NCBI GenBank assembly: GCA_019912965.1
Contig: JAIOHM010000185.1
Span: forward strand, 1 to 64,000
Reading direction: 5' to 3'
Length of the DNA: 64,000 bases
From: Anaerolineae bacterium
Lineage (GTDB): Bacteria > Chloroflexota > Anaerolineae > Aggregatilineales > Phototrophicaceae
Shown: positions 4,257 through 57,470 of the stretch, piece by piece
Numbering within the stretch: the stretch's first letter is position 1
Layout of the letters: the number at the start of each line of letters is the position of its first letter
Notes under the pieces: generated by a model
Told to the model about the DNA's origin: nothing
What the model saw: the letters and a program-made list of their open reading frames with translations, nothing else
The model's database searches: none
Program-made: the position numbers and the translations under genes

Positions 4257-4367
4257 CTGGCGTCAAACCTGAACCTATTGACCGCAAAATAGCTACATAT
4301 ACTGTGGACTTGTCTTCAATAGTGTCTCTGCGTTTGTCTTCTTTAGTCCATAATGAGGAGCATTTTT

Positions 4368-5999
4368 ATGAAACGTGTTTTTCGTGTTTTGCCGCTCATC
4401 CTCCTGACGGCAATTATTCTTGGCTTGGTGATTCCAACCACCGCCCAGGATTTGCCTTCCGTTTCCGCTGAGAGCTGCGATTACGGCGGTGAACTTCTGG
4501 CGGTTGAAGCAGTAGATGCACTGACCGTGAAGTTTACCCTCTGCTATCCTGACCCGGCGCTGCCCTCAAAGGTGGCATTCTCGGCCTTCGCCATTCACTC
4601 GGCTGATCATCTGAATGCGACCGGTGGCGGTGGCGAAGCAATGATCAACAACCCGATTGGTACTGGCCCCTACAAATTGGAAAGCTGGGATCGTGGTAAT
4701 GAAATGGTTTTCACTGCCAACGAACTCTACTGGGGTGAACCGCCAATCGAATCCACTGCGATTTTGAAGTGGAACTCAGAAGCAGCCGCCCGCTGGACAG
4801 AACTTCAGGCTGGCACCGTTGACGGCATCGACAATATTGGCCCAGCCGACTTCGCCGCAGTTGAAGCCAACCCGGATTTCAAACTCTATCCGCGTATTCC
4901 CAACAACATCTTCTATCTCGGCATCAACAACACGGTTGCGCCCTTCGATAATCAGTTGGTACGGCAGGCGCTGGCCTATGGCATCGACAAACAGCGCATT
5001 GTCGATAACTTCTATCCACCTGCCTCGACCGTCGCCAATCAGTTCATGCCTGCCAGCATCTTCGGTTATACCCCCGATGCCAATGTCATTCCTTACGACG
5101 TAGAAATGGCGAAGCAACTGTTGGCCGAATCCGGTGTACCCCTGCCTATTGAAACAACCATCAGCTACCGCGATGTGGTACGTGGATACTTGCCCCAACC
5201 GGCGGTGGTTGCAACCGATCTTCAGGCACAGCTTGCCGAAATCGGCATCAACGCCACCATTACCCCTATGGAATCAGGTGCGTTCCTAGACGCTGCTGAT
5301 GCTGGCGAACTCTCGCTCCACCTGCTTGGTTGGGGTGCAGACTATCCAGATGCCACCAATTTCTTGGACTATCACTTTGGTGCAGGCTCAAGCGACCAGT
5401 TCGGTGACAAAGATCCGGTTCTGACCGATCTGCTCACACAGGCTGGGCAGCTTTCCGATCCCGCCGCCCGTCTGGAGCTTTACCTCCAGGCCAACAACGA
5501 AATCGCCAACTTCGTTCCAATGGTGCCGATTGCCAATGGCGGTAACGCTGTTGCCTTCGCCGCCCGTATCGCAGGAGCATACTCCGGCCCATTCGCGGGT
5601 GAACAGTTCCGCGTGATGGAAGACCCCAATGACGATAACATCATCTTCATGCAGAACGGTGAACCAATCAGCCTCTTCTGCAATGACGAAAGCGATGGCG
5701 AAACCTTCCGTGCTTGCGAACAGATCAACGAATCCCTCCTCGGCTACGAGCTGGGTGGTGGGGCGGTTGTTCCAGCACTAGCGACCGAATGGTCAGCCAA
5801 TGAAGACCTGACCGAATGGACGTTCACACTGCGCGAAGGCGTTAAGTTCTCGGATGGTTCAGACTTTGATTCTGCTGATGTGGTTGCCTCATGGGCTGCC
5901 ATGTGGGATGCTGCCGACCCCAATCATAAAGGGCGCGATGGCAACTTCACCTACTTCAACGCGTTCTTCGGTGCATTCTTGAACGCGCCACCAGCGTAA
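4368..5999 (+). CDS. Family 5 (oligopeptide) extracellular solute-binding protein, apparently circularly permuted
   Basis: Signal peptide MKRVFRVLPLILLTAIILGLVIPTTAQ, then canonical internal segment (VEAVDALTVKFTL...GTGPYKLESWDRGNEMVF...), with the canonical N-lobe (EPISLFCNDESDGETFRACEQINESLLGYELGGGAVVPALATEWSANEDLTEWTFTLREGVKFSDGSDFDSADVVASW) at the C-terminus; ATG 4368 preceded by GAGGAG. Confidence 0.88.
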   Translation: MKRVFRVLPLILLTAIILGLVIPTTAQDLPSVSAESCDYGGELLAVEAVDALTVKFTLCYPDPALPSKVAFSAFAIHSADHLNATGGGGEAMINNPIGTGPYKLESWDRGNEMVFTANELYWGEPPIESTAILKWNSEAAARWTELQAGTVDGIDNIGPADFAAVEANPDFKLYPRIPNNIFYLGINNTVAPFDNQLVRQALAYGIDKQRIVDNFYPPASTVANQFMPASIFGYTPDANVIPYDVEMAKQLLAESGVPLPIETTISYRDVVRGYLPQPAVVATDLQAQLAEIGINATITPMESGAFLDAADAGELSLHLLGWGADYPDATNFLDYHFGAGSSDQFGDKDPVLTDLLTQAGQLSDPAARLELYLQANNEIANFVPMVPIANGGNAVAFAARIAGAYSGPFAGEQFRVMEDPNDDNIIFMQNGEPISLFCNDESDGETFRACEQINESLLGYELGGGAVVPALATEWSANEDLTEWTFTLREGVKFSDGSDFDSADVVASWAAMWDAADPNHKGRDGNFTYFNAFFGAFLNAPPA

Positions 6000-6015
6000 T
6001 CTTCTTTCACCAGTA

Positions 6016-6052
6016 ATCGAGGGGTGTGGGGTACCCGCCCCTCGATTTTTCA
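6016..6052 (+). terminator. Hairpin with T-run between SBP and permease genes
   Basis: AATCGAGGGG ... CCCCTCGATT followed by TTT. Confidence 0.75.
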
Positions 6053-6067
6053 TGAGTACAATACGTT

Positions 6068-7144
6068 ATGTCGAATTTCATCCTCCGTCGCTTGGTCTTG
6101 ACTATTCCCGTTCTCTTCGGCATCCTCTTCGCGACTTTTATGCTGGGAAGATTAATTCCCGGTGACCCCTGTCGAGCTATCCTCGGCGAAAAAGCCACTG
6201 ACGAGGTATGCGATGCCTTTATCAAACGTAATGGTCTCGATCAACCATTGCCAATTCAATTCGGTGTTTATGTACGTAACGTAATGAGTGGTGATCTTGG
6301 GGATTCTATTCGCTTCGGTCGCCCTGTCACAACTTTACTGGTAGAACGGCTTCCCGTCACATTTGAACTTGCTGTATTCGCGCTGCTGTTCGCCATTACA
6401 TTAGGCATACCGCTGGGTATCATATCGGCCTATCGTCACAATTCTGCTGTGGATGTAGGCACCATGATTGGGGCAAACATAGGGGTTTCAATGCCCGTCT
6501 TCTGGCTAGGCTTAATGCTAGCCTATTTCTTTGGCGTCATCCTAAAAGACACACCTTTTGCCCTCCCCCCGTCAGGTCGATTAACGGCTGGCGCAAGTTA
6601 TGATCCCTTTTATACCGTCTGGGGATTGGCAGCAGCAGAAGAGGCCGCGAGTGGGCTGATGATTTTTCTCTCTCGCCTCAACATTCTCAATGCAGTGTTG
6701 ACCTTGAATGGGGCGCAATTCGTCGATTCCTTGCGACACATTATCTTGCCTGCCGCCGCTGTTGGAACTATCCCACTTTCCATCATTGCGCGGATGACCC
6801 GTTCCAGTGTACTTGAAGTGCTGAATCAGGATTATGTACGAACCGCACGAGCCAAAGGATTGTCCGAATACAAAGTAGTGATGCGACACGCTGTTCGGAA
6901 TGCTTTACTCCCCGTTGTAACCATTATCGGCCTCAGTTTTGGTGGTCTGGTCGCTGGGGCAGTCCTGACTGAAACCATCTTTGGGTTCTCCGGCATCGGT
7001 AAAACATTATCGGATGGCATCACAGCCCGCGACTATTCACTCGTACAAGGTGTAACCCTGATTACAGCCATAGGCTTTCTGTTCATCAACTTGGTGGTTG
7101 ACGTACTCTATAGCTATCTGGATCCGCGAATCCGGTTGACATAA
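6068..7144 (+). CDS. Peptide ABC transporter permease (DppB-like)
   Basis: MSNFILRRLVLTIPVLFGILFATFMLGRLIPGDP; EAA motif DYVRTARAKGLSEYKVVMRHAVRNALLPVVT. Confidence 0.9.
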   Translation: MSNFILRRLVLTIPVLFGILFATFMLGRLIPGDPCRAILGEKATDEVCDAFIKRNGLDQPLPIQFGVYVRNVMSGDLGDSIRFGRPVTTLLVERLPVTFELAVFALLFAITLGIPLGIISAYRHNSAVDVGTMIGANIGVSMPVFWLGLMLAYFFGVILKDTPFALPPSGRLTAGASYDPFYTVWGLAAAEEAASGLMIFLSRLNILNAVLTLNGAQFVDSLRHIILPAAAVGTIPLSIIARMTRSSVLEVLNQDYVRTARAKGLSEYKVVMRHAVRNALLPVVTIIGLSFGGLVAGAVLTETIFGFSGIGKTLSDGITARDYSLVQGVTLITAIGFLFINLVVDVLYSYLDPRIRLT

Positions 7145-7159
7145 CAGAGAGGCACACTC

Positions 7160-8320
7160 ATGCAGCGCGTTGAAACCACAATAAATCTTCGCAAAGAAGC
7201 ACAAACGGTCAAGCGAATCCCCCTCACTCGGGCAATAACCATTGTCATCTTTTCAACTTTTCTAATTCGCGGGCTGTTAATTGGGCTTGCTTCGCTGGCC
7301 GATCTTCTATCTGGTTTTATCCCATTATTAGGGCTGCCAGCTCAGGCCATCATATTCATCAACAATCTCAATTATTTAGTGGCCCTGCCGCTAGGGATCA
7401 TTATCTATTATCTGGGGCAAGGCAAAGAACAGAATACCCCCTTCCTCGAACTGATCACCAATATTCTCCGCAACCGTTCTGCCATATTCGGTACGGTCAT
7501 CATCAGTCTGTTCATCTTCGCAGCCGATTTTGCACCTCTGATTGCGACCCACGATCCTATTCTGTCCATGATCGGTCAACCCGGCGAAGTTGGCAGACTG
7601 CCATCAAAACCACCTTGCCTTACCCTCACTGGTTGCCCCGATCCACAACACATTATGGGGTTGGACTTAAATGCGCGTGATCTCTTTAGCCGTGTGATTT
7701 ACGGCGCACGCGCTTCGTTGACGGTTGGTATCGCCAGTGTTTTATTCGCCATTGTGATCGGCACATCGCTCGGTCTGGTTTCCGGTTATGCAGGCGGGTG
7801 GGTAGATAACATCATTATGCGCTTTATGGATGTATTGCTGGCTTTTCCATCGCTCTTGCTGGCAATCGCCATCGTCACCATTCAGGGTCCCGGTTTGGAA
7901 AACGCACTCTTGGCTATCGCCATCGTCTCTATCCCGGTTTATGCCCGCCTGACCAGAGCCAGCGTACTTTCAGCCAAAGAACTGGAATTCGTTACTGCTG
8001 CCAGATCGTTGGGCACGCCATCCCTACGCATACTCATCTTTCAAATATTCCCGAACACCTTAACCCCCATCATTGTACAAGGAACACTTGGCATTGGCGG
8101 CGCTGTATTAGAAGCCGCTGCCCTATCATTCTTGGGTCTAGGGGCGCAACCGCCAACACCTGAATGGGGGCAGATGTTAAGCGAGGCACGCAATTACATT
8201 TTTAGCGCGCCCCACATGGTATTCTTCCCCGGCATAGCGATAATGTTCACCGTGTTAGGGTTTAATCTGCTGGGTGATGGCCTGCGCGATGCAATGGATC
8301 CGCGCCTAAATCGCAACTAG
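7160..8320 (+). CDS. Peptide ABC transporter permease (DppC-like) with ~100-aa N-terminal membrane extension
   Basis: C-terminal MGLDLNARDLFSRVIYGARASLTVGIASV...ELEFVTAARSLGTPSLRILIFQIFPN; hydrophobic N-terminal extension. Confidence 0.88.
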   Translation: MQRVETTINLRKEAQTVKRIPLTRAITIVIFSTFLIRGLLIGLASLADLLSGFIPLLGLPAQAIIFINNLNYLVALPLGIIIYYLGQGKEQNTPFLELITNILRNRSAIFGTVIISLFIFAADFAPLIATHDPILSMIGQPGEVGRLPSKPPCLTLTGCPDPQHIMGLDLNARDLFSRVIYGARASLTVGIASVLFAIVIGTSLGLVSGYAGGWVDNIIMRFMDVLLAFPSLLLAIAIVTIQGPGLENALLAIAIVSIPVYARLTRASVLSAKELEFVTAARSLGTPSLRILIFQIFPNTLTPIIVQGTLGIGGAVLEAAALSFLGLGAQPPTPEWGQMLSEARNYIFSAPHMVFFPGIAIMFTVLGFNLLGDGLRDAMDPRLNRN

Positions 8321-55862: not shown

Positions 55863-57470
55863 ATGAACATTCGCCTGCCCTACTCTCTCAAGTTTGCCTG
55901 TTTGCTACTGTTGGTTTTAGTTCCCTTTACTATTACCCAAGCACAGGATACCCCGACGACTTTAACCATTGGGACAAGCTACATCATCGATACGCTGAAT
56001 CCGACGGTCGGCTATTACGGGTACAACATTCGCGGCCTGCTCTACGACACACTGGTTGAACAAGCAGATGGCAGCAATGTTGAAGCGGGGTTGGCGGAAA
56101 GCTGGAGCGTTTCTGATGATGGCTTAGTCTGGACATTCAAAATCCGTGATGGGGTCACTTTTAGTGATGGAACACCCCTGACAGCGGTTGAAGCGGCATG
56201 GACACTCAACTGGGTTATCGAAAACGAAATCCCAACCATGTCGTCATATCTGAGCAACATTATCGAGGTTGAGGCACCTGACGCGACTACGCTGAAAGTC
56301 ACGCTGGATACCCCGGTTTCCAATATGATTAGTTCCAAGCTGCTGTTTGTTTTCATTCTGCCGCCGCACATTTGGCAAGATAAAACGATTGATGAAATCA
56401 TGGAATATGATGACCCAACAGCGGTAAGCATTGGTGCAGGGCCGTACACGGTACGAGAATTCCAGCCTGATGAGTTCCTGATTCTGGATGCAAACCCGAA
56501 TTACTGGCGCGGCAAATCACCCGTAGACGAGATTATCTACCGCCACTATGCAAATGATGATGCATTGATTCAGGCGATGCTGGCTGGCGAAGTCGATCTG
56601 ATTACATCACTGCCCAGTTCCGGTGTTGTGCCGCTTCAGGGGAACAGCAACATTACTGTAGCAACCGGGAATATCGGCTACTTTGCTGATCTGGCGGTCA
56701 ATTCGTATGAAACTGGTACACACCCTGCCAGTCTGAATGATCCGGTTATTCGCATGGCGATGGATTATGCGATTGATCGCCAGCAGATTACCACGATTGC
56801 GTATCAAGGTTATGCACAACCGGCCACAACCTTCATTCCGCCTTCAATGGGCATTTATCACAATACGGACATTGCCGGACTGCCTTATGATGTTGCAGAA
56901 GCCAACCGCATTCTAGATGAAGCAGGCTATCTCGATAACGATGAGGATGGCGTCCGCGAATATTCAGATGGCACCCCGTTGGAATATCGTTTGTGGGGGG
57001 ATGACTGCTGTGCATATTATGTTCGAATGCTGGAAATTATCGCGGATGGGTTCGCCCAAATTGGCATCTCGGTTGTGCCTGTGACCCAATCGACCGATAC
57101 ACTGATCGCCGCGCAGATTGATTATGATTTCGATCTCGTCCTTTGGGAGTGGGCGCCGGATACCGATCCTCACTTTTTGACCAGCGTCTTCACCTGTGCA
57201 GAAACACAGGATGGTGGCTGGAATGACAGCGGTTATTGCAACGCGGAGTACGATGCATTGTTCGATGTACAGGCTACAGCACTTGACCAGCAGGCAAGGA
57301 AAGATGCTATCTGGACATTGCAGCAAATGATTTATGATGCACGGGCGTGGATTATGATCGCCTATACCGATTCTATCAGCGCGTATCGAAATGATCGGTT
57401 CAGTTTCCACCCGAATCTGGCTATCGCCGGTGTGAAATGGGCCTTGTTCAACGATTTCGCTGTGCTTTAA
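55863..57470 (+). CDS. Family 5 peptide ABC transporter substrate-binding protein (canonical order)
   Basis: Signal peptide; LTIGTSYIIDTLNPTVGYYGYNIRGLLYDTLVEQADGSNVEAGLAESWSVSDDGLVWTFKIRDGVTFSDGTPL; RMAMDYAIDRQQI. Confidence 0.93.
   Translation: MNIRLPYSLKFACLLLLVLVPFTITQAQDTPTTLTIGTSYIIDTLNPTVGYYGYNIRGLLYDTLVEQADGSNVEAGLAESWSVSDDGLVWTFKIRDGVTFSDGTPLTAVEAAWTLNWVIENEIPTMSSYLSNIIEVEAPDATTLKVTLDTPVSNMISSKLLFVFILPPHIWQDKTIDEIMEYDDPTAVSIGAGPYTVREFQPDEFLILDANPNYWRGKSPVDEIIYRHYANDDALIQAMLAGEVDLITSLPSSGVVPLQGNSNITVATGNIGYFADLAVNSYETGTHPASLNDPVIRMAMDYAIDRQQITTIAYQGYAQPATTFIPPSMGIYHNTDIAGLPYDVAEANRILDEAGYLDNDEDGVREYSDGTPLEYRLWGDDCCAYYVRMLEIIADGFAQIGISVVPVTQSTDTLIAAQIDYDFDLVLWEWAPDTDPHFLTSVFTCAETQDGGWNDSGYCNAEYDALFDVQATALDQQARKDAIWTLQQMIYDARAWIMIAYTDSISAYRNDRFSFHPNLAIAGVKWALFNDFAVL

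Follow-up and report, generated by a model that had tools for sequence, protein, structure and literature searches.

Near the start of a 64,000-nt stretch of DNA from an Anaerolineae bacterium (the window), one gene for a family-5 substrate-binding protein (SBP) seems to have its parts in the wrong order. A first-pass annotation, made from the letters alone, proposed that the protein is circularly permuted. Is the order truly swapped, is it a product of assembly, and what could such a protein do? We confirmed the open reading frame (543 codons, 4368-5999, + strand) and refer to its product as cpSBP.

Segment order and anatomy of cpSBP

In a Pfam scan, the only family that matched the 543-a.a. 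protein was SBP_bac_5 (PF00496), which matched in two stretches (1.1e-82; 278.6 bits, with a cut-off of 32.4 bits). When the two parts were scanned separately, residues 1-417 matched positions 63-365 of the profile (3.5e-65) and residues 418-543 matched positions 2-55 (8.2e-18). The pieces are in swapped order and there is no single collinear match. Single-pass profile searches report an ordinary SBP_bac_5 match, so this kind of rearrangement is easily missed in annotation. A paralog elsewhere in the window was named by the first-pass annotation as having the canonical order, and it does: it has one collinear match, to positions 2-361. Using phmmer against the PDB, we found that residues 43-410 are similar to residues 126-498 of HbpA/GbpA and that residues 443-533 are similar to residues 23-120. 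The matches to DppA show the same swap.

We also generated rotated versions of the mature protein, with a new start at each fourth residue, and scored them against a profile of 44 canonical relatives. The highest score came from a start at residues 420-424 (428 bits, with coverage of profile positions 2-490), as compared to 328 bits and coverage of 119-490 for the unrotated protein. Rotation thus gains 100 bits and gives a single full-length canonical match. As a control, canonical proteins that were rotated at the matching point lost a median of 196 bits. Both the swapped-order signal and the gain from rotation are far above chance, and they bear out the proposed permutation.

Other features of the gene are listed in Table 1. 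The N-terminus is hydrophobic by inspection, which suggests an export signal. The ribosome-binding site and the adjacent permease genes that had been reported are present, with the two permeases directly downstream. The promoter-like hexamers are there too, but they are weak: we found 3 matches in the region, with 1.3 expected by chance.

Table 1. Features of the cpSBP locus and of the canonical paralog, in window coordinates.
Feature	Position	Strand	Basis
Ribosome-binding site AGGAG (ATG 7 nt further on)	4356..4360	+	sequence
Circularly permuted SBP_bac_5 gene (cpSBP)	4368..5999	+	PF00496 scans, PDB matches, rotation test
Sec signal peptide (predicted), residues 1-27; the window copy has no lipobox	4368..4448	+	sequence
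New N-terminal strand pair, with C37 and C59 at either side (predicted disulfide, permuted family only)	4476..4544	+	family alignment
Segment M, residues 43-411, which corresponds to the middle and the C-terminal part of canonical proteins (PF00496 63-365; HbpA 126-498)	4494..5600	+	
R272, in the alignment column of DppA R355 (R383 in the precursor), which binds the ligand carboxylate	5181..5183	+	
D325, in the alignment column of DppA D408 (D436 in the precursor), which binds the ligand amino group	5340..5342	+	
Linker from old C-terminus to old N-terminus, residues 412-423	5601..5636	+	
Segment N, residues 424-536, which corresponds to the mature N-terminus of canonical proteins (PF00496 2-55; HbpA 23-120)	5637..5975	+	
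Second pair of cysteines specific to the permuted family (C438 and C450), directly past the fused junction	5679..5717	+	
New C-terminal tail, residues 537-543 (FLNAPPA)	5976..5996	+	
Hairpin and U-run in the gap that separates the SBP gene from the permease genes (-26.5 kcal/mol, z -4.9)	6015..6050	+	
DppB-type permease PermB	6068..7144	+	profile matches
Scoop motif of PermB, PGDPC35...E41-K42...C48; contains the cysteine pair characteristic of cpSBP operons	6158..6211	+	
DppC-type permease PermC	7160..8320	+	profile matches
Canonical SBP_bac_5 paralog (internal control, outside the cpSBP system)	55863..57470	+	Pfam scan

Across the permuted family (described below), the linker has 11-18 residues, most often 12 or 13. 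The site of the new termini corresponds to a loop of 2-37 residues in the closest canonical relatives, and this loop is longer in distant ones. The first-pass annotation placed both termini within lobe I; this holds, and we can refine it to a cut inside the N-lobe at a loop of variable length.

Two pairs of cysteines are conserved in the permuted proteins and are nearly absent from their canonical relatives. All 73 of the complete members have a cysteine near the new N-terminus (C37 or one slightly upstream) and all 73 have C59, where canonical relatives mostly have T, K, N, or E. C438 and C450 are both present in 71 of the 73, and the other two members have neither, so this pair was lost together. 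This pattern of conservation suggests that each site of rearrangement has its own disulfide. The putative ligand-binding residues are also conserved: R272 is found in 69/73 members and D325 in 70/73, and the equivalent residues are each found in 43/44 canonical proteins.

Two AlphaFold models of cpSBP had modest confidence (pLDDT of 67 and 64) because the alignments contained only 12-13 sequences. The lower value is from a second run, for which the signal peptide was removed and one row was added to the alignment. Confidence was lowest in the fused N segment and at the new C-terminus. The first model, with a pLDDT of only 67, resembles GbpA (3m8u) and DppA over about 373 columns. A two-lobed fold for cpSBP seems likely, and the case for it comes more from sequence than from structure.

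Spread and origin of the permuted family

We scanned 84,980 species genomes and identified 11 loci with the same order as cpSBP, at 50-68% identity over the full length. The first-pass annotation suggested a search of Chloroflexota genomes, and the order is conserved there: 57 of 400 sampled genomes encode a permuted SBP (54 strong members and 3 remote ones). It is also found in 4 of 297 genomes from a second phylum and in 0 of 300 sampled genomes from the Bacillota, which is the phylum of the Planococcus locus discussed below. Because scoring in this survey was limited to the top three or four candidates from each genome, these counts are lower bounds. With separate profiles for the M and N segments, we classified 75 distinct ORFs as M-N, with a common cut site, and 66 as canonical (N-M). 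Among all of the ORFs of the fetched loci, none had the order N-M-N, which would be an intermediate with a duplicated segment.

The representative of the second phylum is locus L026, from a genome labelled Acidimicrobiales, which encodes a permuted SBP along with permeases and ATPases. L026 and the three other genomes from this phylum might reflect transfer or an ancient presence outside the Chloroflexota. The three most distant members of the family (L083-L085) score weakly. A scan of plasmid proteins gave weak two-piece matches, with eight at 30-32% identity among the matches listed. At two loci, the permuted SBP is fused behind another binding protein in a single ORF: SBP_bac_3 at L102:6088-8541 (- strand) and the LivJ-type Peripla_BP_6 at L049:1492-3825 (- strand), whose ORF reaches the end of the contig. 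Genome G104 has a second and divergent permuted copy (L075:6236-7996, - strand), without permeases and beside an ORF of 1,982 amino acids.

In trees of the M segment alone, of the N segment alone, and of the whole rotated protein, the permuted proteins lie on one side of a single branch (SH-aLRT support of 100, 99, and 100, respectively). The M and N segments also have one and the same top-scoring canonical group, L142/L143 from the Planococcus phylum (335 bits for M and 102 bits for N), so there is no need to invoke separate donors. We identified 48 positions that are typical of the permuted family. No canonical protein has more than 6 of these residues, which implies a deep split, and none of the canonical proteins that we compared qualifies as a canonical-order sister lineage. 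We did consider L092, a canonical operon whose PermB has the scoop cysteines and groups with those of the permuted loci (support of 98). We rejected it: the SBP from this operon is canonical and unremarkable, with only 6 of the 48 permuted-specific residues, and its relatives within its phylum belong to known canonical groups. The best reading is that the permuted family has a single ancient origin. Circular permutations usually arise by tandem duplication followed by the loss of both outer halves, and a tandem duplication with both ends trimmed is a plausible origin for cpSBP. As a separate observation, tandem permuted SBP genes precede a single pair of permeases in L031 (L031:3652-7518) and L080; L118 also has tandem permuted SBP genes, without permeases in the stretch that was read.

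Could the swapped order have arisen in some other way? The C-terminal 120 residues of cpSBP do resemble the start of an SBP, and the first-pass annotation raised the concern that 5630-5999 is the beginning of a second canonical gene that was joined to a truncated first one by misassembly. We consider this to be extremely improbable. Independent assemblies, among them the single-contig genomes G005, G208, and G337, contain 75 distinct ORFs with the identical order and cut site. Also, dN/dS is far below 1 (0.01-0.13 in close permuted pairs), which rules out a pseudogene as well. We conclude that the gene is genuine and ancient and that purifying selection acts on it. A fusion is harder to dismiss but still unlikely: an SBP that lacked its N-terminal part might have later gained one at its C-terminus from a different SBP gene. 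This would yield an identical final order of segments, and as the rotated proteins are only about 35% identical to canonical ones, the donor is not closely traceable. But the two segments share their best canonical group, each of them gives one clade, and we did not find any truncated or intermediate forms among the ORFs of the fetched loci.

The operon and its permeases

In most of the permuted loci, the genes for cpSBP, PermB, and PermC are in that order on one strand. DppD/F-type ATPase genes adjoin in about a third of the loci. In the window, both of the BPD_transp_1 permeases are adjacent and there are no adjoining ATPase genes. The hairpin ahead of permB is likely to be a partial terminator that raises the expression of the SBP over that of the permease. 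The permease is not directly downstream in L063, L075, L079, L083, and L084; in L079, the permeases are adjacent but on the opposite strand. L083 and L084 also contain canonical SBPs besides the remote permuted one, and some of these have a neighboring PermB with two cysteines near the scoop.

The PermB proteins of the cpSBP operons form one clade (support of 100). The cysteine pair in the scoop is found in 58/59 of them, as compared to 2/58 PermB proteins from canonical operons, and 57/59 have the scoop's E41 followed by K or R at position 42. Since the scoop cysteines and the permutation are both clade-wide traits, they amount to one association and not to many independent events. PermC from the window has 129 residues before the conserved motif, or about 65 more N-terminal residues than most PermC proteins of the family. 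This extension is largely peculiar to the window and probably adds membrane helices.

Annotation models say little about the substrate. The NCBIfam models for DppB/DppC, GsiC/GsiD, and nickel Opp2B/C match the window's permeases at similar scores, all below the equivalog cut-offs, so the permease models do not name the ligand. The NCBIfam model for DppA gives cpSBP a score of 180.5 (cut-off of 1005).

Proposed function and comparison with known systems

Putting these results together, cpSBP is very probably a natural circular permutant of the DppA/GbpA group, with a single ancient origin, that serves as the binding protein of a DppABC-type importer of short peptides. The old C-terminus would have been joined to the old mature N-terminus by the short linker, and new termini would have opened in the variable loop of the N-lobe. 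Most likely, the protein still folds into the usual two-lobed trap, R272 and D325 bind short peptides or peptide-like ligands, and the ligand is passed to the family's own DppB/DppC-type permease. As in DppABCDF, the scoop motif of this permease would reach into the cleft. Of the two cysteine pairs specific to the family, one probably forms a disulfide that holds the new N-terminus in place and the other a disulfide that does so for the fused junction; the cysteine pair of PermB probably stiffens the scoop. The permuted order, its conservation in a single clade under purifying selection, the retained ligand residues, and the association with the operon and its permeases are direct results, and from these we infer the fold, the disulfides, the ligand, and transport.

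Other roles are conceivable. The ligands of family-5 proteins are diverse, the permease models are equivocal, and some permuted copies are orphans. So cpSBP might be involved mainly in sensing, or it might bind a non-peptide ligand such as an opine, haem, or a nickel complex, with the permutation being incidental to its function. We view this as a minority possibility, as permease genes adjoin in most loci, the Arg/Asp pair of DppA and GbpA is kept in about 95% of the permuted proteins, and the charged scoop residues are kept in nearly all of the PermB proteins. Somewhat more doubtful is the idea that the permutation and the permease co-evolved, so that the permuted SBP and a cysteine-locked DppB-type scoop form a distinct class of importer in which the scoop and the cleft engage differently and chain topology affects docking or release. 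Paired group-specific cysteines in the SBP and in PermB would mark such co-evolution. Less likely again, and slightly less so than a fusion, is that the permutation evolved to suit tethering to the membrane, as was proposed for Tp0684 (PMC4990184). We detected a lipobox in 61 of the 75 permuted ORFs, and it is usually separated from the new N-terminus by a long spacer. However, the lipobox is missing from the window's clade (L001, L021-L025, and L027) and from L079 and L108. Tethering is thus not required, and with several members lacking a lipobox it is unlikely to be the general reason for the permutation. Nor does tethering track segment order: canonical relatives such as L092 can have lipobox-like signals, and the window's canonical paralog does not have a lipobox.

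Our preferred reading, a permuted DppA-like importer protein, invites comparison with DppA from E. coli (1dpp, 1dpe) and GbpA/HbpA from Haemophilus (3m8u, 3tpa). These share with cpSBP the PF00496 domain, the Arg/Asp pair, and DppB/DppC-type partners. They have the opposite order of segments; the cut in cpSBP corresponds to about residues 118-126 of DppA, and cpSBP has two additional cysteine pairs. In DppA, R383 and D436 (R355 and D408 in the mature protein) bind the ends of the dipeptide and, upon docking, E41 and R42 of the DppB scoop (PMC12136057). The DppABCDF operon (PMC12136057) is similar in composition to the cpSBP operons, about a third of which have adjoining ATPase genes, and E41/R42 of DppB correspond to E41-K42 in the window's PermB; the differences are that the scoop from cpSBP operons carries a conserved cysteine pair and that the SBP is permuted. 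Among the PDB matches listed, no chain reaches past position 390 of the permuted profile in one stretch, so none of these is a solved structure in the permuted order. What is new here is the two cysteine pairs at the sites of the rearrangement, the retention of the ligand residues, and the family's own permeases with a cysteine-paired DppB scoop.

Natural circular permutants of the binding proteins of ABC importers are rare. A different kind of case is the relationship by circular permutation between glycine-betaine- and molybdate-binding proteins (CPSARST, PMC2395249). That one links different families with under 24% identity and is visible by structure only; the permutation of cpSBP separates members of a single family and can be recognized from sequence. 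In the open-access literature that we searched, we found no report of a permuted family-5 binding protein.

The one studied permuted SBP of an ABC importer that we found is Tp0684 (TpMglB-2) from Treponema, of "Cluster Bc," whose authors suggested tethering as the reason for the permutation (PMC4990184). Like cpSBP, it is a natural permutant in which segments of the N-lobe were moved to the C-terminus. Tp0684 still binds its ligand and changes conformation (PMC4990184). Unlike cpSBP, it is a sugar-binding protein of Type I/Cluster B, with another cut site and origin, and is found in treponemes and Gram-positive bacteria (PMC4990184). The Pfam scan of cpSBP matched PF00496 only, and not the MglB-like Cluster B. 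So cpSBP would work like the Tp0684-type proteins but is not a member of Cluster Bc. Also, the moved segment of Tp0684 has just 13% identity to its canonical counterpart (PMC4990184), while the moved segment of cpSBP is clearly homologous. Because the cpSBP family is large and clearly homologous across the cut, with canonical paralogs in the same genomes and a dedicated clade of permeases, it is a good natural experiment on chain topology, and could show whether topology affects folding, tethering, lobe closure, or docking.
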